Shown here: positions 7,633 to 39,074 of the stretch, in pieces
How the letters are laid out: each line of letters starts with the position of its first letter
Position numbering within the stretch: position 1 is the stretch's first letter
Assembly: GCA_022842285.1 (NCBI GenBank)
Contig: JALHPV010000029.1
Coordinates: forward strand, 1 to 39,074
From: Kofleriaceae bacterium
GTDB taxonomy: Bacteria; Myxococcota_A; Polyangia; Haliangiales; Haliangiaceae
Length of the DNA stretch: 39,074 bases
Direction: 5' to 3'
Notes under the pieces: model-generated
Databases searched by the model: none
Seen by the model: the letters and a program-made list of their open reading frames with translations, nothing else
What the model was told of the DNA's origin: nothing
Translations under genes and position numbers: made by a program

Positions 7633-8106
7633 CTACGGGCTGCGGCGTAGCCCATCGGGGCGGAGGTCTTCGCACCCGCAGACCGGACAGCCATGCTCGT
7701 CGCGTCCTGTCTTGGGGATACCGTGCGGGCAACCGATCGCGCACGGCTGACAGGTGCGTGTTCGAGGCGACGGGGGCGGCGTCGGCTGCTGCGGAGTTTC
7801 GCGCGGCACCTCGGGCGGAGACGGAGGCGGCTCGAGCGAAGGCGGGGTCACCATCGGTGACGAGGGCTCGCATCCGCACAGTGGACACCCGTTCGCGTCC
7901 ACGCCCTCGAGCGGGGCGCTGTCGGGGCAGCCGATCGCACAGGCATCACAGGCCCGCGGCGCGGGTTGAACCTCGAGCGCTGGCTCGGAGGGCGGCGGGG
8001 CCGGCGCGACGGTTCGCCCCGGGCTTGCCGGCGCGGGCTCGACGTAGGTGCAGCCTCCCATCACCAGCCACCCGACCACGACCGACGCGAGAGCGACGCA
8101 GCGCAT
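7633..8106 (-). CDS. Lipoprotein with two antistasin-like Cys repeats
   Basis: A 157-residue lipoprotein starting MRCVALASVVVGWLVMGGC, with Cys19 as the lipobox cysteine. Two near-identical Cys-rich modules are separated by a Pro-rich linker. Each follows C-x2-C-x3-C-P-x(n)-G-x-D-x2-GCP-x-CGCE: ACDACAIGCP...GCPLCGCE and TCQPCAIGCP...GCPVCGCE. This is the spacing of antistasin-type domains, small disulfide-rich folds best known as serine-protease inhibitors in animals. A purine-rich AGGGGGGA sits right before the ATG as a ribosome-binding site, so I reject an earlier in-frame start at 8238. It lies 31 bases downstream of the EamA gene and may be co-transcribed. Function is inferred from pattern only. 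Confidence 0.75.
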   Translation of the reverse strand: MRCVALASVVVGWLVMGGCTYVEPAPASPGRTVAPAPPPSEPALEVQPAPRACDACAIGCPDSAPLEGVDANGCPLCGCEPSSPMVTPPSLEPPPSPPEVPRETPQQPTPPPSPRTRTCQPCAIGCPHGIPKTGRDEHGCPVCGCEDLRPDGLRRSP

Positions 8107-8137
8107 TCCCCCCTGACGTTCGCCGCCGGCTCGCCAT

Positions 8138-9058
8138 TCACCCGACCGTGTCGTCTGCCGCCGCATGCCCCATCGTACGCTGCGCGGGCACCGCCGTGTC
8201 CGCCGGGAGCGTCGGCGCGGTGCGGGCCGACCACACACCGCGGAACGTCACGGCCCCGACGACGATCGCGCCGCCGAGGATGGCGAGCGGACCGGGCATC
8301 TCGCCGATCGCCATCGCCACCCACAGCGGCGAGAGGATCGGTTCGATCACGGGGATGAGCATCGCCTCGAGCGCGGTGGCATGGCGCGCGGCCGCCGCGT
8401 AGCAGATGTACGCGAAGCCCTGCTGTACGACGCCGAGGGCGACGAGTGCGAGGACCTCGGTGCCAGTGGGACGCAGGGTGAGCACGACGGCGGGGGCCCC
8501 GATCACGGCCCCGACCACGTTGCCGAGGAACAGCGCGCGGAGGGCACTGCCACCGGAGACCGCGACCTTGCGCAGCGTCATGGCGTTGAACGCGTAGGCG
8601 ACGCCGGCAGTGAGCGCGACGCCATTGCCCACGGCGCCATCGAACGTGAGCTTCTCGAAGAAGAAGAGGGTGATGCCGCCGATGACGGCGACGATGGTGA
8701 ACCAGTCGAGCTTGGTCGCTTTCTCGCCGAGGAACCACGCGCCGAGGAGCGCGATCCAGACAGGGGCGGAGTACTGGATGAGGATCGCGTTCGCGGCGGT
8801 GGTGAGCTTGTTCGCGATGACGAACAGCCCCGTGGTCGAGGCGAGCGCCACGGCCGCCCCCCACTCGATGCGGGTGATGCCCTGCAGCGACGGACGGCCC
8901 CACGCATAGAGCGTCAGCGCACAGATGGCGCAGCGCGTGGACCAGATGGCGACGGGGTGCGCGTCGACGAGCTTGATGAGCACGCCCGCGGAGCTCCAGA
9001 ACAGTCCGCACATGACGAGCATGAACACTGCTCGGCGGTGCGGTGAAGTCTCGCTCAC
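8138..9058 (-). CDS. EamA/DMT-superfamily transporter
   Basis: A 306-residue integral membrane protein with about ten hydrophobic helices in two halves, the layout of drug/metabolite (EamA) transporters. The first half contains GLFWSSAGVLIK and the end-of-repeat pattern PVWIALLGAWFLGEKAT. The second half ends with PILSPLWVAMAIGEMPG and a final helix, as in the family. Such proteins export amino acids, metabolites or drugs; the substrate cannot be told. The C-terminal 30 residues are soluble and Ala/Thr-rich. The GTG start fits a TAGCGT hexamer eight bases upstream. Divergent from glgB with a 97-base gap. Confidence 0.85.
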   Translation of the reverse strand: MSETSPHRRAVFMLVMCGLFWSSAGVLIKLVDAHPVAIWSTRCAICALTLYAWGRPSLQGITRIEWGAAVALASTTGLFVIANKLTTAANAILIQYSAPVWIALLGAWFLGEKATKLDWFTIVAVIGGITLFFFEKLTFDGAVGNGVALTAGVAYAFNAMTLRKVAVSGGSALRALFLGNVVGAVIGAPAVVLTLRPTGTEVLALVALGVVQQGFAYICYAAAARHATALEAMLIPVIEPILSPLWVAMAIGEMPGPLAILGGAIVVGAVTFRGVWSARTAPTLPADTAVPAQRTMGHAAADDTVG

Positions 9059-33499: not shown

Positions 33500-33514
33500 G
33501 TAACGGTTCGTTAC
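33500..33514. other. Palindrome at the end of the histidine kinase gene
   Basis: GTAACG-GTT-CGTTAC is a perfect 6-bp inverted repeat that includes the TAA stop (33511-33513) of the kinase gene. With a bulge it extends by GC-rich arms (CGCGGC/GCCGCG). It is centred about 85 bases upstream of the predicted devC transcription start. It could be a weak terminator/attenuator after the kinase gene or a binding site for the regulator. Confidence 0.35.
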
Positions 33515-35388
33515 GCCGCGGGTAGTACGACGGTGAACGTGGAGCCGCTCCCGACCGTGGAGCGCACCCGGATGTCGCCGCCGTGGGCGCGGATCACCTT
33601 GTGACAGATCGCGAGGCCGAGGCCCGTGCCGTCGGGGCGGGTGGTGAAGAACGGTTCGAAGATGCGTGGCAGATCGTCGGGTCCGATGCCGCGCCCCTGA
33701 TCGACGACCTCGATCGCGATCGATCCTGCTTCGGCGGCCGCGCGCAGCGTCACGCGGGCACCCGGGCGCGACGCATCCGCTGCGTTGCCGACGAGATTCA
33801 CGAGCACTTGCCGCAGGCGTTGCGGATCGCCTTGGACGGTGAGGGCATCGGCGCCCGGCGACACGTCGATGGAAACGCCGCGCTCGTCGAGCACGGGCGT
33901 GAGGCCCTTTGCCGCCGTCTCGATCAGCTCGCCGACGTCGATGGCCTCGGTGGTGAGCCGCACCGGCTTCGCGAAGTCGAGGATCTCCGCGACCGACTTG
34001 TCGAGGCGGGCGAGCTCCTCGAGCGCGATGTCGAAGTGCTCGGCGTCATCGGGATCGAGAGCGAGCTTGCGCTGGAGGATCTGCACGTTCAGCGAGATCG
34101 AGGTCAGCGGCGTCCGGATATCGTGGGCGATCGCGGCCGCAAACTGCCCGAGCGCCGCGAGCCGCCGGGCGCCCTCCAGCTCGGTCACCGCCTCGGCGCG
34201 CTCGACGACCAGCGCCACGCGGGCAGCGAGCTCGCGCGCGACCAGGTACGTGTCGCGGTCGATATTGCCGCCATCGAGGCCGAAGACACCGACGAGGGCG
34301 CCGTCACCACCGAGCGCGGGGACGACGAAGCTGGCGGGAACCTCGGGCTCCTCGCCGTGCTTGCGCGGTTCGCCGTCGCGCAGCGAGTGGGCGAGTCGAG
34401 CGGGGAGGGCCGACGCGGGCAGCCAGCGCACGTGCGCGCCGTCGCCGATGGTCGAGATGCGCTCGGTGGCCTCCGCGATCGCCCGGGGCGCATCGGTGGG
34501 CAACGGGTCACCCTGCACGGCGAGGCGCCGCGCACGCCGCTCGTCGAGCGGGGCGAGCACGCGTCGCTCCACGCGCGGGTACAGGAGCCAGGCGATCGCG
34601 GCGAGCGCGAGCGGCACCAGCGTGGCGCCGACGAGCAAGGCTTGTTGCAGCGTCGTCCCGGGGACCGTCCACCGTTGCACGCCCCAGACCGAGGCGCCGC
34701 CACCGACGACGACGACGAGGCCGAGCATGGCAACGGTGAGGACCTCGGTCGCCGTCGACCGGATGCTGAAGAGCTCGCTCCGCAGCACGGCCGTGCCGAT
34801 GACGACGAAGCTCACGAGGGTGGCGAACGTGGTCTCGCCCCAGACGCCGATCTCGAACAGGCCGAACGCGGGGGCGATGAAGTACGCCGAGAACCCGACG
34901 ATCCACCGGAACGCGAGCATGCCGACGACGGCGCGCTGGCTCGGGTCCGGCGCACGCCGCCAGGCTCGAACGCAGAGCGCGAGGATCGACAGCGTCGCGG
35001 GGCCGTAGAAGATCACCTCCGATACCCGCATGAAGGCGCCGTACTGCGACTCGATCGCGACGGTGGCGATGCCAACGATTCCCCACAGAATGAGGAGCGC
35101 TCGCCATCGCCATCGCATCGGGCGGAGGTTCGGGAACGCGGTGATGAACTCGAGGGTCAGGGTCGCGAGCACCACCGTCCCGATCGCGCACGGCACGGTG
35201 ACGGCGGCGTCGACGATCGAGTCTCCGGCGATGACGTTGAGACCACGCCAGGCCGTCATCGTCGCATCGCAGAGCGCGAGGATGCCGAAGGACAGGTTGT
35301 CGTGGCGGTGGCGCGCGGCGCGCAGCACGAGCCCCGCGTAGGCCGCTCCGATCGTCGCGATCGCGAGAACGAGGAGGCCGCTGATCAC
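33511..35388 (-). CDS. Multi-pass sensor histidine kinase
   Basis: A 625-residue kinase. Residues 1 to about 285 contain roughly nine hydrophobic helices, an integral sensing region rather than a periplasmic loop domain. A GAF-like segment (about 290-385) follows. The HisKA box FAAAIAHDIRTPL has the phospho-accepting His near 410. The HATPase domain has N-box LVNLVGNAAD, G1 VDQGRGIG, F-box IFEPFFTTRPDG and G2 GTGLGLAI. It is the partner of the NtrC-family regulator: its GTG start overlaps that gene's TGA by four bases (GTGA). The signal sensed is unknown; the exporter operon downstream suggests an envelope-related cue. Confidence 0.9.
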   Translation of the reverse strand: MISGLLVLAIATIGAAYAGLVLRAARHRHDNLSFGILALCDATMTAWRGLNVIAGDSIVDAAVTVPCAIGTVVLATLTLEFITAFPNLRPMRWRWRALLILWGIVGIATVAIESQYGAFMRVSEVIFYGPATLSILALCVRAWRRAPDPSQRAVVGMLAFRWIVGFSAYFIAPAFGLFEIGVWGETTFATLVSFVVIGTAVLRSELFSIRSTATEVLTVAMLGLVVVVGGGASVWGVQRWTVPGTTLQQALLVGATLVPLALAAIAWLLYPRVERRVLAPLDERRARRLAVQGDPLPTDAPRAIAEATERISTIGDGAHVRWLPASALPARLAHSLRDGEPRKHGEEPEVPASFVVPALGGDGALVGVFGLDGGNIDRDTYLVARELAARVALVVERAEAVTELEGARRLAALGQFAAAIAHDIRTPLTSISLNVQILQRKLALDPDDAEHFDIALEELARLDKSVAEILDFAKPVRLTTEAIDVGELIETAAKGLTPVLDERGVSIDVSPGADALTVQGDPQRLRQVLVNLVGNAADASRPGARVTLRAAAEAGSIAIEVVDQGRGIGPDDLPRIFEPFFTTRPDGTGLGLAICHKVIRAHGGDIRVRSTVGSGSTFTVVLPAA

Positions 35389-36728
35389 TCGGCGTCCTCG
35401 CGCCGCAGGCCGTACTCCTCGATCTTGCGGTCGAGCGTGGGGCGACTGATGTCGAGGATCGCGCAGGCGCGACGCTTGTTCCACTGCGCGTGCACGAGGA
35501 CGCGTGCGACGTGCGCCCGTTCGACCTCGCGCAGGGTCGGGAGGGTGCCTTCGGCGACGGGGTGTTCACCCGACGCGGCGGAGGGCAGCGGGAGGAGCGT
35601 CTCGTCGAGCACGTCGGACTTCGCGAGCACCACCGCCCGCGTCAGGGTGTTCTCCAGCTCGCGGACGTTCCCCGGCCACGGGTGCGCCTGCAAGCGGGCA
35701 AGCGCAGCGGGCGTGACGTAGCGGAGGTGCTTGTCGAGGTCCTTGTGGATCTTGGCGAGCAGGCCCTCGACGAGGATCGGGATATCCGACGGGCGGTCGC
35801 GGAGCGGTGGCAACTCGATCTCGACGACGCGCAGGCGATAGAACAGATCCTCGCGGAACGTCCCTTTCGCGACCATCGCCCCGAGATCGCGATGCGTCGC
35901 GGCGACCACGCGGGCTTCGAGCGGCAGGGGCTTCGCATCACCCACGCGCTCGAACGTTCGCTCCTGGAGCACGCGCAGGAGCTTGGCCTGGAGCTCCAGC
36001 GGGATCTCCGCGACCTCGTCGAGGAACAGCGTGCCCTTGCCGGCGAGCTCGAAGCGACCGGGCCGATCCGCGATCGCTCCCGTGAACGCGCCCTTCACGT
36101 GGCCGAACAGCTCGCTCTCGAGGACGCCGGGGGCGAGCGCGGTGCAGTTGACCGCCACGAACGGCCGCCCGCGATCAGCCGACGCCTCGTGAATGGCGCG
36201 GGCGACGAGCTCCTTGCCCGTGCCCGACTCGCCGCGAATCAGCACCGGTGCTCGCGTGGTCGACACCGCACCGATCTGCTTCCAGACGTCGCGGATTCCC
36301 GGGCTCTTGCCGAGAATGTCGCCCGCGTGGTGTCCGTCGTGAGCGGGCAGGGCGGCGAGGTGATCGCGCGACCGGCTGTCGAGGGCCGCGCGGATCACGC
36401 GGCCGAGCCGATCGATGTCGAGTGGCTTCACGAGGTACTCGTAGGCGCCGAGCTGCACCGCCTTCACGGTCGACTGCATGTCGTCGCGCGCGGTGATGAC
36501 GACGACGGTGGGCTTCACATCGCGGGCCGCGAGGGCGGTCAGCACGTCGAAGCCGCTCCCTCCGGGGAGGCCGAGATCGAGCAGCACGAGATCGATGTCG
36601 CGGGTCGCAGCCGCGATCGCGCTGGGCGCGTCACCCGCAGCGGAGACGTCGAACCCGTCGCCCGCGAGCAGCTTCTCGAGGGTCCGCCGGATCGACCGGT
36701 CGTCATCGACGATGAGGATGCGCGCCAC
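35385..36728 (-). CDS. NtrC-family sigma54-dependent response regulator
   Basis: A 447-residue regulator. The receiver domain (1-115) has acidic residues D8-D10, phosphoacceptor D51 ([11 protein letters not shown]), T79 and K101. The AAA+ domain (about 138-375) has Walker A GESGTGKE (166-173), the sigma54-contacting GAFTGA (213-218), Walker B GTLFLDE (232-238) and the arginine-bearing FREDLFYRL. The Fis-type HTH is at the end ([20 protein letters not shown]). The intact GAFTGA means it should activate sigma54 promoters. GTG start at 36728. Two sigma54-like elements nearby, before this gene and before devC, are candidate targets. Confidence 0.93.
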
Positions 36729-36771: not shown

Positions 36772-36800
36772 TTGACAGTGATATATGACAGTGTCATATT
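36772..36800 (+). promoter_or_regulatory. Promoter of the MerR gene with palindromic spacer
   Basis: TTGACA (36772-36777), a 17-base spacer and CATATT (36795-36800) form the best sigma70-type promoter in the window. The perfect palindrome ATATGACA-G-TGTCATAT (36783-36799) fills much of the spacer and most of the -10, where MerR-family proteins bind. Six bases separate the -10 from the GTG at 36807, so the mRNA is predicted to be leaderless. Confidence 0.65.
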
Positions 36801-36806
36801 GAAGAG

Positions 36807-37328
36807 GTGGAAGCGCTCTGGACCCTTACGGATCTCGTCGCCGAGGTCGGCAGCCGGATCGCGGCGCTGCCCGCACCCGCGAACGGGCAGGTGAGGGCCA
36901 TCCCGGACGAACGAACGATTCGTTACTACGGGACCATCGGCCTGCTGGACCGCCCCCTGGAGATGCGGGGCCGCACCGCCCTCTACGGACGCAAACACCT
37001 GGCGCAGGTCGTCGCCATCAAGCGCATGCAGCAGGTGGGGAAGAGCCTCGCCGAGATCTCGGCGCTCTGGGCCACTCTCGATGACGCCACGCTCGCGCGC
37101 ATGTCGGGCGTGACGCTGACGGCGCCCCGCCGGAGCCAATTCTGGAAGCAGGCCGCGACGGTCGAGCAACGCGTGGAGATCGCTCCGGGTCTCGCGCTGG
37201 CCGTGCAGATGCCTGTCGATACCGCCCTGACTCCTGCCGACGTTCGTGCACTCCGCACGGCCGCGGCTCCCCTGATCGCCGAGCTGGCACGCCGCCAGTC
37301 GGCGACGAACACTGGAGATGCCCCATGA
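36807..37328 (+). CDS. MerR-family transcriptional regulator
   Basis: A 173-residue regulator. The N-terminal winged helix is MerR-like: WTLTDLVAEV, then TIRYYGTIGLLDRP (37-50) and YGRKHLAQVVAIKRMQQVGKSLAEI. About 13 extra residues are inserted between the first helix and the TIRYY helix (LPAPANGQVRAIP), unusual for MerR. There is no cysteine anywhere, so it is not a thiol metal sensor like MerR or CueR. The C-terminal 60 residues are family-unspecific (IAPGLALAVQMPVD). GTG start directly after a promoter with a palindromic spacer, which suggests autoregulation. Its stop overlaps the start of the VIT/VWA gene (ATGA), so they are co-expressed. Confidence 0.83.
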   Translation: MEALWTLTDLVAEVGSRIAALPAPANGQVRAIPDERTIRYYGTIGLLDRPLEMRGRTALYGRKHLAQVVAIKRMQQVGKSLAEISALWATLDDATLARMSGVTLTAPRRSQFWKQAATVEQRVEIAPGLALAVQMPVDTALTPADVRALRTAAAPLIAELARRQSATNTGDAP

Positions 37329-39074
37329 CCGCACTGCCGATTGCGTTGATGAGTGATGACGAGGTGGCCCGCTTCGGTCGGGACGTGGAAGCGTCCTTCG
37401 GCGCGCTGCAGACGGCGCGCGGCGCGCTGCCGCTGGCGGCCATGGAGCTCGATGCGCGCGTCGTGGGCGTGGTGGCCGCGATCGAGGTCGCGCAGAGGTT
37501 CGTGAACACGACGGGCGTGCCCATCGAGGCGACCTACATCTTTCCGTTGCCCGATCGCGCGGCGGTGCATCGCTTCCGCATGGAGGTGGCGGGGCGCATC
37601 GTCGAGGGTGTCGTCGAGGAGCGCGGGGCGGCGCGCGAGCAGTACGACGAGGCGATCGCCCACGGACATCGCGCGGCCATCGCGGAGGAGGAGCGCTCCG
37701 GCGTCTTCACGCTGCGCGTCGGCAATCTCATGCCGGGCGAGTCGGCGATCATCCGGCTGTCGCTCGTGGGGCCTCTCCCCGTCGATGATGGCGAGATCAC
37801 GCTGCGCTTCCCGCTCGTGGTCGCACCGCGCTACATGCCCGGCGTCGCGCTCGGCGGCGAGCAAGCGGGCCTCGGCAACGAGCCCGACACGTCGATCGTG
37901 CCCGACGCGTCGCGCATCTCGCCGCCGCGTCTCTTGCCGGGTTACCCGAACCCGGTGCGCCTCGGGATTCGCGTGGCGCTCGTCGATCACGACGTGCGCG
38001 AGGTAGCGTCGAGCCTGCACGCCATCACGAAGCGCTACCAGGACGCCCACATCGTCGAGCTCGGCGCGGACGAGAGACTCGATCGTGACTTCATCCTGCG
38101 CTGGCGCGTCGAGCCGCAGAGCATCGCGCTGGCGAGCTCCCTCGTCTGTGTCGACGATGCCGACGGCGCAGGCGGCTCGTTTGCCCTCACGCTCATGCCA
38201 CCGAGCACCACGACGGTCGGCACGAAGCCGCGGCAGGTCGCGGTGCTGCTCGATCGCTCGGGCAGCATGGAGGGCTGGAAGATGGTCGCGGCGCGCCGCG
38301 CGACGGCTCGCATCATCGATTCGCTCACCAGTCGCGACGAGTTCGTGGCGCTCGCCTTCGATGATCGCGTGGAGGGCTTGCCGGACCTCGGGCTGGCGCC
38401 CGCCACGGATCGCAACCGGTTCCGCGCGGTCGAGGGGCTCGCGAAGCTCGACGCCCGGGGCGGCACCGAGCTGATGCAGCCCTTGAAGTACGGGGCCTCG
38501 CTCCTCGGCACGCACGACGACCGCGAGCACGTCATCGTGCTCGTCACGGACGGTCAGGTCGGCAACGAGGATCAGATCCTCCGCGAGCTCACGCCGTCTC
38601 TTCGCAAGACGCGCGTGTTCACGCTCGGCATCGACCAGGCCGTCAACGCGGGCTTCCTGCGCAAGCTCGCCGCGGCGGGCGCGGGCCTGTGCGAGCTCGT
38701 CGAGTCCGAGGATCGCCTCGATGACGTGATGGGGAAGGTGCATCGCCGCATCGGCACTCCCATCGCCACCGAGCTCTCGCTCGAGTCGGAGGGGATCCAG
38801 CTCGAGCAGATCGCGCCCGCGCGCCTACCCGACGTGTACGCGGGTGCGCCCGTGGTCGTGTTCGGCCGCTACCGCGGCCGCGCGCCGGCCACCGCCGCCG
38901 TGACGATCGTCGGTTCGAGCCTCGGTGAGCCGCTGCGTCAGCGCGTCGTACGCACCGTCACGCCCGCCGCTCCCGGCCCCGCCGCCGGAGCCTGGCTCGC
39001 CGCCTCGTGGGCGCGCGCGCGCATCCGCGATCTGGAGGATCGCTACGCGACCGGAGACCGCTCCGTCGAGGCCG
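37325..39074 (+). CDS. VIT and von Willebrand factor A domain protein (3' end outside window)
   Basis: 583 residues are visible and the frame is open to the right edge, so the C-terminus is missing. The N-terminal VIT domain (about 20-150) has FVNTTGVPIEATYIFPLPDRAAVHRF split over residues 59-84, and the motif REQYDEAIAHG. The VWA domain (about 303-480) carries a complete MIDAS: D310-x-S312-G-S314 (LLDRSGSM), T381 (GGTEL) and D409 (VTDGQ). No signal peptide or membrane helix is visible at the start, so the protein looks cytosolic. VIT/VWA proteins resemble inter-alpha-trypsin inhibitor heavy chains and are thought to mediate metal-dependent protein binding. Coupled (ATGA) to the MerR-family gene. 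Confidence 0.88.
   Translation, partial: MTALPIALMSDDEVARFGRDVEASFGALQTARGALPLAAMELDARVVGVVAAIEVAQRFVNTTGVPIEATYIFPLPDRAAVHRFRMEVAGRIVEGVVEERGAAREQYDEAIAHGHRAAIAEEERSGVFTLRVGNLMPGESAIIRLSLVGPLPVDDGEITLRFPLVVAPRYMPGVALGGEQAGLGNEPDTSIVPDASRISPPRLLPGYPNPVRLGIRVALVDHDVREVASSLHAITKRYQDAHIVELGADERLDRDFILRWRVEPQSIALASSLVCVDDADGAGGSFALTLMPPSTTTVGTKPRQVAVLLDRSGSMEGWKMVAARRATARIIDSLTSRDEFVALAFDDRVEGLPDLGLAPATDRNRFRAVEGLAKLDARGGTELMQPLKYGASLLGTHDDREHVIVLVTDGQVGNEDQILRELTPSLRKTRVFTLGIDQAVNAGFLRKLAAAGAGLCELVESEDRLDDVMGKVHRRIGTPIATELSLESEGIQLEQIAPARLPDVYAGAPVVVFGRYRGRAPATAAVTIVGSSLGEPLRQRVVRTVTPAAPGPAAGAWLAASWARARIRDLEDRYATGDRSVEA

Follow-up and report, generated by a model that had tools for sequence, protein, structure and literature searches.

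Here we report that a MerR-like regulator and a VIT/VWA protein, encoded side by side in a Kofleriaceae bacterium, also have adjacent genes in members of Myxococcota, Actinomycetota, Armatimonadota and Acidobacteriota, and are nearly always encoded together behind what is predicted to be a single sigma-70-type promoter. In many pairs the two proteins share a short R-x-x-F-W (FW) peptide, which suggests that the VIT/VWA protein, a putative scaffold, may report back to its own switch. The stretch of DNA analysed, hereafter the window, spans 39,074 nucleotides, and its relevant features are collected in Table 1. A sequence-only reading of the window had correctly described the two open reading frames, the ATGA (4-base) overlap that joins them and the absence of cysteine from the regulator; it missed that the operator is double, that the layout is a leaderless one and that both proteins carry one peptide.

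Table 1. Features of the regulator-VIT/VWA operon in the window and its presumed continuation
Feature	Position	Strand	Remarks
-35 hexamer TTGACA	36772..36777	+	promoter search; conserved in relatives
Double operator, two TGACAsTGTCA units, 13-bp register	36773..36796	+	first unit degenerate in window
Perfect 17-bp palindrome ATATGACAGTGTCATAT	36783..36799	+	better half of double operator
-10 hexamer CATATT, 17-bp spacer	36795..36800	+	overlapped by palindrome ATATGACAGTGTCATAT
MerR-superfamily regulator ORF	36807-37328	+	173 aa, no Cys; start codon 6 nt past -10
Codons of R109-S-Q-F-W113, RxxFW linker peptide of regulator	37131..37145	+	computed from ORF start 36807
VIT-VWA protein, complete MIDAS, first 583 aa	37325..39074 (ORF 37325-39073)	+	open at contig end
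Overlap with contig C468, same genome	38894..39074	+	181 bases, 180 identical
Amidase_2 (N-acetylmuramoyl-L-alanine amidase) gene	L131 / C468 ~946-1721	same as VWA	directly after VWA gene

The association between the two genes extends well beyond the window. The regulator was matched at an E value of 1e-3 in 30 of 56 related genomes and at 1.5e-26 or better in 21, its own included; 20 loci were fetched from the other 20 genomes, and a same-strand VWA gene lies downstream in 18 of these, with the remaining two (L039 and L040) ending at a contig edge. A scan of named genomes with an alignment of the regulator yielded 40 loci, many on contigs already in the first set, and added Nannocystis, Virgisporangium, Dactylosporangium, Catenulispora, Armatimonadota and Acidobacteriota. 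The VWA gene follows in 38 (L089 being a weak, cut-off match), while L056 and L066 end at a contig edge before it would be reached, and the distinct two-gene module proposed by the sequence-only reading is thus borne out by recurrence in four phyla. The two genes overlap by four bases in 20 of 37 loci, using start codons chosen by script and leaving out L070, where the regulator is frameshifted. VWA orthologues, defined by a score of at least 561 bits (next best 459, with at most 17 candidates scored per genome), were present in 22 of the 56 genomes, namely the 21 regulator-positive ones and G026, an odd case explained by a contig that begins inside the regulator. Across the phylum, 102 of 377 Myxococcota genomes contained a regulator match at an E value of 1e-8, the weak end of which probably consists of ordinary MerR proteins. 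Forty further Myxococcota loci (E 1.5e-11 or better) had the VWA gene downstream in 35 cases; L136 and L154 end at a contig edge, and L161, L168 and L172 carry wider-family regulators with no VWA match downstream though the contig continues. A more distant regulator-VWA pair was seen in G031 (L092). Among the open-licence papers listed in our literature searches, none dealt with a MerR-VIT/VWA pair.

The regulator belongs to the MerR superfamily by its winged helix-turn-helix (HTH), with a Pfam MerR_1 (PF13411) score of 36 bits against a cut-off of 21.6 and structural Z scores of up to 11.3. It shares this fold with the metal-sensing regulators PbrR, CadR and CueR (Z ∼9-11 within residues 4-95), but differs from them in its lack of cysteine, an insertion in the HTH turn, the 17-bp promoter spacer and a different C-terminal half; the best score against the metal-sensing MerR/CueR/CadR families of NCBIfam was 34.8 bits, far short of the cut-off of 150.85. 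The insertion, of ∼17 residues with a conserved NGQVRxVPD-like stretch, had been placed in the winged helix by the sequence-only reading. Superposition of model residues 5-95 on 74 residues of CueR puts it instead in the turn that joins the first and second helices of the HTH, and not in the wing. The fold likeness covers residues 4-95 and the structural search barely probed the C-terminal half, where MerR-superfamily members carry a dimerisation helix or coiled coil; for this half a single-chain AlphaFold2 model predicts a beta hairpin after the linker followed by a long helix (residues 143-169). The regulator of the window is thiol-free as described, and so are 28 of 31 FW-type regulators, yet the description does not generalise, applying to just 43 of 63 regulators overall. 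In Nannocystis exedens the regulator (L070 ∼7971-8602) is broken across two reading frames, by either a frameshift or an assembly error.

Upstream of the regulator, a promoter search returned a single promoter-like site, compared with a mean of 0.0 in 50 shuffles, and the palindrome occupies its spacer and -10 hexamer just as had been noted from the sequence. The 11-bp core of the palindrome has one match in the window and at least one in 26 of 100 shuffles, and taken alone does not exceed what chance would give over this length of DNA; we take the palindrome as real because it sits within the promoter and is conserved. Inspection by eye of 21 upstream regions identified a -35 hexamer of TTGACA in 20 and TTGTCA in L041, and in all 21 two TGACAsTGTYA-like units in a 13-bp register within the spacer, followed by the -10. 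When searched as a 24-base pattern with up to three mismatches, the double operator turned up once per genome in 10 of 29, each time at the merR promoter, with no match in the backward control; the same pattern missed the regulator-bearing genomes G005, G014 and G015, and found no second site in the window's own genome. The exact 13-bp palindrome core likewise occupies a single place in its own genome, and among 22 other genomes was matched in G033 (C212) only. A looser, gapped operator pattern gave no match, yet it misses the window's own site too and is therefore uninformative. Pairs of a second, non-FW clade have operator forms of TTGACAGTAATTACTGTCATGTTTACAGT at the same 17-bp spacing. In the large sister clade L137-L169, whose pairs are without FW, the operator is built on TGACAGTAA.

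The position of the start codon is part of a conserved promoter layout. A -35-like box is present in 79 of 81 loci and absent from two, and in 57 of the 79 boxed loci the distance from the -10 to the first start codon in frame is 5-8 nt, compared with 2 of 158 in an out-of-frame control, which shows that the start codon is non-randomly placed and nothing more. The distance is 9 nt in two loci and falls elsewhere in 20; for eight of these outliers (L065, L070, L071, L151, L152, L153, L165 and L167) a box that lies one repeat further upstream and leaves a gap of 6 nt could be recognised by eye. Due to this narrow distance of ∼6 nt, the merR mRNA is probably leaderless. In the window the start codon follows the -10 by 6 nt, too closely for a ribosome-binding site to fit between them. 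Promoters activated by MerR-type regulators have spacers of 19-20 bp, whereas a 17-bp spacer such as the one here is already optimal for sigma-70. Because such a near-optimal promoter would not need MerR-type untwisting, we infer that the regulator acts as a repressor, and a dedicated operator inside it argues for self-repression. The autoregulation that the sequence-only reading drew from the palindrome is thus made likely by an operator that is conserved inside the promoter and found at no second place in the genome.

The VIT/VWA protein of the window scores 111.4 bits for VIT and 43.1 bits for VWA against Pfam, both in excess of the cut-off, with the VIT domain preceding the VWA domain. Its MIDAS was rightly called complete: an alignment of 18 rows shows no variation at the residues D, S, S, T and D, and the DxSxS string is present in 63 of 63 complete pairs. 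The window contig ends at position 39074, and the missing C-terminus of the protein, which the sequence-only reading had proposed to look for, was located with the pattern RxxFWK-stop, which pointed to contig C468 of the same genome. There the reading frame runs on to C468:945, giving 837 aa in all and ending in PRGAFWK-stop. C468 is thus probably the continuation of the window gene, with the one mismatch in the overlap leaving room for a near-identical strain variant. For the related protein of L062 (830 aa), an AlphaFold2 model with a mean pLDDT of 74.3 places a VIT region at residues 42-167, a VWA domain at 306-480 with flanking strands on both sides, and helices; the C-terminal part comprises a low-confidence region (626-725), four helices (728-814) and a low-confidence tail. 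Although the window protein had been labelled adhesion-type, a surface location is not supported for this family, as an N-terminal hydrophobic segment above 1.6 on the hydropathy scale is absent from 31 of 31 FW-type pairs (the starts of L134 and L135 are uncertain). Several paralogues in related genomes, inspected by eye, have secretion or membrane features. The C-terminal part of the window protein (on L131) contains a stretch resembling a transmembrane segment, probably a helix with LAAPLVAAPVLVIAL, whose 19-residue hydropathy of 2.48 is the highest among the 31 FW-type pairs; because this stretch is in the window's own copy, a purely cytosolic protein is uncertain. The Acidobacteriota pairs L088, L090 and L091 consist of a MerR gene followed by a short VWA protein of ∼420 aa, and in L090, the one of the three that was scanned, a VIT domain was not found.

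In many pairs the two proteins have the FW peptide in common. In the regulators it lies in the linker, where, across 30 FW-type rows, no position between residues 97 and 124 is near-invariant except R109, F112 and W113; R..FW is present in 30 of 31 FW-type regulators, against a chance of ∼0.0015 for each when shuffled, and the remaining one (L135) has FW without the arginine. In the VWA proteins it lies at the very end: tails of FW-type pairs read FWK, FWR or FWKR, with FWKRNR in L061 and RRERWW in two Armatimonadota, and an arginine stands at most four residues ahead of [FW]W in 29 of 30 tails, with the exact R..[FW]W spacing in 22 of the 30. Among 63 complete pairs, FW is present in both proteins in 30, in neither in 32, in the regulator only in one (L134, whose VWA protein ends REIRRRLP) and in the VWA protein only in none. 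This count excludes open VWA ends, L087, where the start of the regulator is cut off (this locus carries both peptides), and L161, L172 and L173, which form no clean pair. Paralogous VIT/VWA proteins served as controls, and an FW tail was found in none of the 16 with a closed end (17 loci). FW elsewhere in the protein occurs in 4 of the 30 tail-bearing VWA proteins, and of the 33 tail-less ones 3 contain it somewhere. On the VWA tree the FW split requires one change for the regulator and two for the VWA tail, so that the co-occurrence amounts to one historical event and a test that treats pairs as independent has no power. The case for function therefore lies not in correlated gains but in the fact that one peptide is conserved in two unrelated places across three phyla. 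Many VWA proteins of the sister clade L137-L169 end in another recurring tail, which is xAGPEGAML-like.

Taken as a guide to mechanism, the shared peptide argues that repressor and scaffold may bind the same site, either on the scaffold or on a third protein. The reading that we put forward, as plausible but still tentative, is a self-contained autoregulated two-gene module in which a docking peptide common to both proteins would let the scaffold act back on the repressor. The regulator would repress its own operon, the VWA protein would be cytosolic, and the FW peptide would dock at one binding site for which, as both partners carry it, the VWA tail and the repressor linker may compete or at which they may gather. 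Engagement of a MIDAS-dependent target by the scaffold would free its tail or pocket, which would then capture the repressor; removal of the repressor from the operator would allow more scaffold to be made. A more specific version, which we consider possible though rather doubtful, is that the repressor holds a built-in copy of the RxxFW docking peptide of its partner, forming a peptide-mimicry circuit kept in Myxococcota, Actinomycetota and Armatimonadota, by which the scaffold, a relative of vault-PARP and VWA5A, would report its occupancy to its own promoter. Several observations weigh against the autoregulated module with feedback. The 32 pairs with FW in neither protein keep the pairing, so such a circuit would not need FW everywhere; L134 has FW in its regulator alone, and L161, L168 and L172 have no VWA match downstream. 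In single-chain AlphaFold2 models both the FWK tail (pLDDT <50) and the regulator linker (∼66) are undocked, although the absence of tail docking within the VWA protein of L062, modelled as a single chain from 34 sequences, says little. Finally, the 20 of 79 loci with a start codon outside 5-9 nt, the two at 9 nt and the two loci without a box depart from the common promoter layout.

The same 32 pairs favour plain autoregulation, in which the regulator would sense a small ligand through its C-terminal beta-beta-alpha part and control the VWA gene, the FW peptides having separate roles and no protein-protein feedback taking place. In many members of the non-FW clade an operator-like promoter is still present at unchanged spacing, and the hairpin and long helix after the linker in the regulator model would suit a ligand-sensing part. 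However, this explanation, which we consider unlikely, leaves unaccounted for the same short peptide at unrelated positions of two partners.

A further alternative keeps the peptide central: both FW peptides might dock on a third, common host protein, such as a protease adaptor, chaperone, kinase or envelope partner, that governs the amount or location of each. A short motif found in two proteins usually points to a receptor in common, and two such copies are present here. L135 agrees with external docking as well as with the feedback reading, as its VIT/VWA protein keeps the tail AFWK though the preceding sequence differs, with a kinase-like stretch near the end (Pkinase 23.6 bits, below the cut-off of 31.7). 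The neighbourhood of the pair does not supply a candidate, since among 1805 flanking ORFs of 38 loci, with the pair left out, no third gene occupied a fixed place beside it in the different groups; a receptor gene elsewhere would escape this search. Five clusters of flanking ORFs join different groups (Kofleriaceae-type, Nannocystis, Actinomycetota, Armatimonadota and Acidobacteriota), while an earlier clustering, in which 535 ORFs from all 40 loci fell together, was of no help in finding a third partner. Nor did a search for RxxFWK-stop in 23 genomes reveal a recurrent third protein among its 18 matches, of which seven were the VWA protein itself, six had TGG instead of the stop and five were not traced, compared with 21 matches in the backward control. 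None of the three related proteins scanned against the anti-phage defence models of PADLOC matched a family, which does not disprove a defence role. On balance, docking on a third protein appears improbable.

The immediate neighbours of the pair differ between lineages. On one side of the pair, at 33511-36728 of the window, lie genes for a histidine kinase and an NtrC-type response regulator, divergent from merR, and in the 20 fetched loci a divergent response-regulator gene is present in 11 of 12 from the same genus and in none of the eight others. The sequence-only reading had allowed the palindrome to serve this sigma-54 regulator too. That it belongs equally to both genes is not supported, as the operator stays with merR in the 20 loci and the divergent gene does not. 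This also makes it very unlikely that the regulator is a MerR-type activator that untwists the promoter and serves the divergent two-component genes as well, as the MerR-superfamily HTH and the arrangement within the genus might suggest, since outside the genus the divergent gene is gone while the operator stays, and the spacer is 17 bp rather than 19-20 bp. That the two genes are neighbours by inheritance alone, with no functional link, is extremely improbable in spite of the three wider-family regulators without VWA, given a pair conserved in four phyla with different flanks, frequent gene overlap and co-presence in genomes. Variants of a AGTAACGAAACGTT-like box were observed upstream of merR, towards the response regulator, in the same-genus loci L022-L024, L026, L028-L030 and L038-L040, and such a box was not seen in the short intergenic region of the window. 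On the other side, an Amidase_2 gene with a lipobox-like start (recognised by eye) follows the VWA gene in the window's genome and in 12 of the 13 Kofleriaceae-type loci where that gene is complete, L061 being the exception, and in none of the other loci among the 81 searched. The amidase hints at an envelope-related target in the window's lineage only.

The VWA protein can be compared with several known systems. Its best PDB sequence matches are the human proteins PARP4 (vault PARP; E 4.6e-56), ITIH4 (E 1.6e-44) and ITIH1 (E 4.8e-26), and the ITIH1 structure 6fpy aligns with the VWA model at a Z score of 26.4 over 503 residues (8.7 Å rmsd). Unlike PARP4 and the ITIH proteins, however, it shows no ADP-ribosyltransferase or N-terminal secretion part and ends in a short FWK peptide. 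Sortase targets carry a signal peptide and a sortase-type tail. The marine proteobacterial sortase target family TIGR03788 has the VIT-VWA core in common (346.8 bits over residues 41-578), but the score of this contig-cut protein is below the cut-off of 551.65, as is that of the complete relative L062 (404.7), and by hydropathy there is no N-terminal hydrophobic segment, while the tail is PRGAFWK. The intracellular proteins VWA5A of human and Vwa1 of Dictyostelium share with the L062 model a VIT domain, a VWA domain with MIDAS, helices, a disordered loop and a C-terminal helical bundle, and the bundle of Vwa1, modelled against its VWA domain, has been proposed to autoinhibit; in contrast to the pair described here, the available sections of that report mention neither a MerR partner nor an FWK tail (PMC10539598). 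ArnB, a vWA protein with a beta-sandwich and a C-terminal four-helix bundle, acts in gene repression via its C-terminus, according to the available sections of PMC6509490, and the ArnA-ArnB structure 8s05 aligns with the VWA model at a Z score of 24.4 over 170 residues. The archaeal ArnA-ArnB system thus indicates that a vWA protein with such a bundle can act in a repression module, although ArnA is an FHA/zinc-finger protein rather than a MerR regulator and those sections do not mention a VIT domain (PMC6509490). In the loci studied here the conserved partner gene is MerR-like, and no other neighbour, FHA-domain or otherwise, is common across groups.

A bacterial pair that combines a single operator, a single promoter and a common peptide is a small system that makes the question of what a VIT/VWA scaffold senses testable with a reporter. 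If the proposed feedback is true, the pair would clearly exemplify a repressor imitating the tail of the protein under its control, within a widely conserved and probably leaderless operon.
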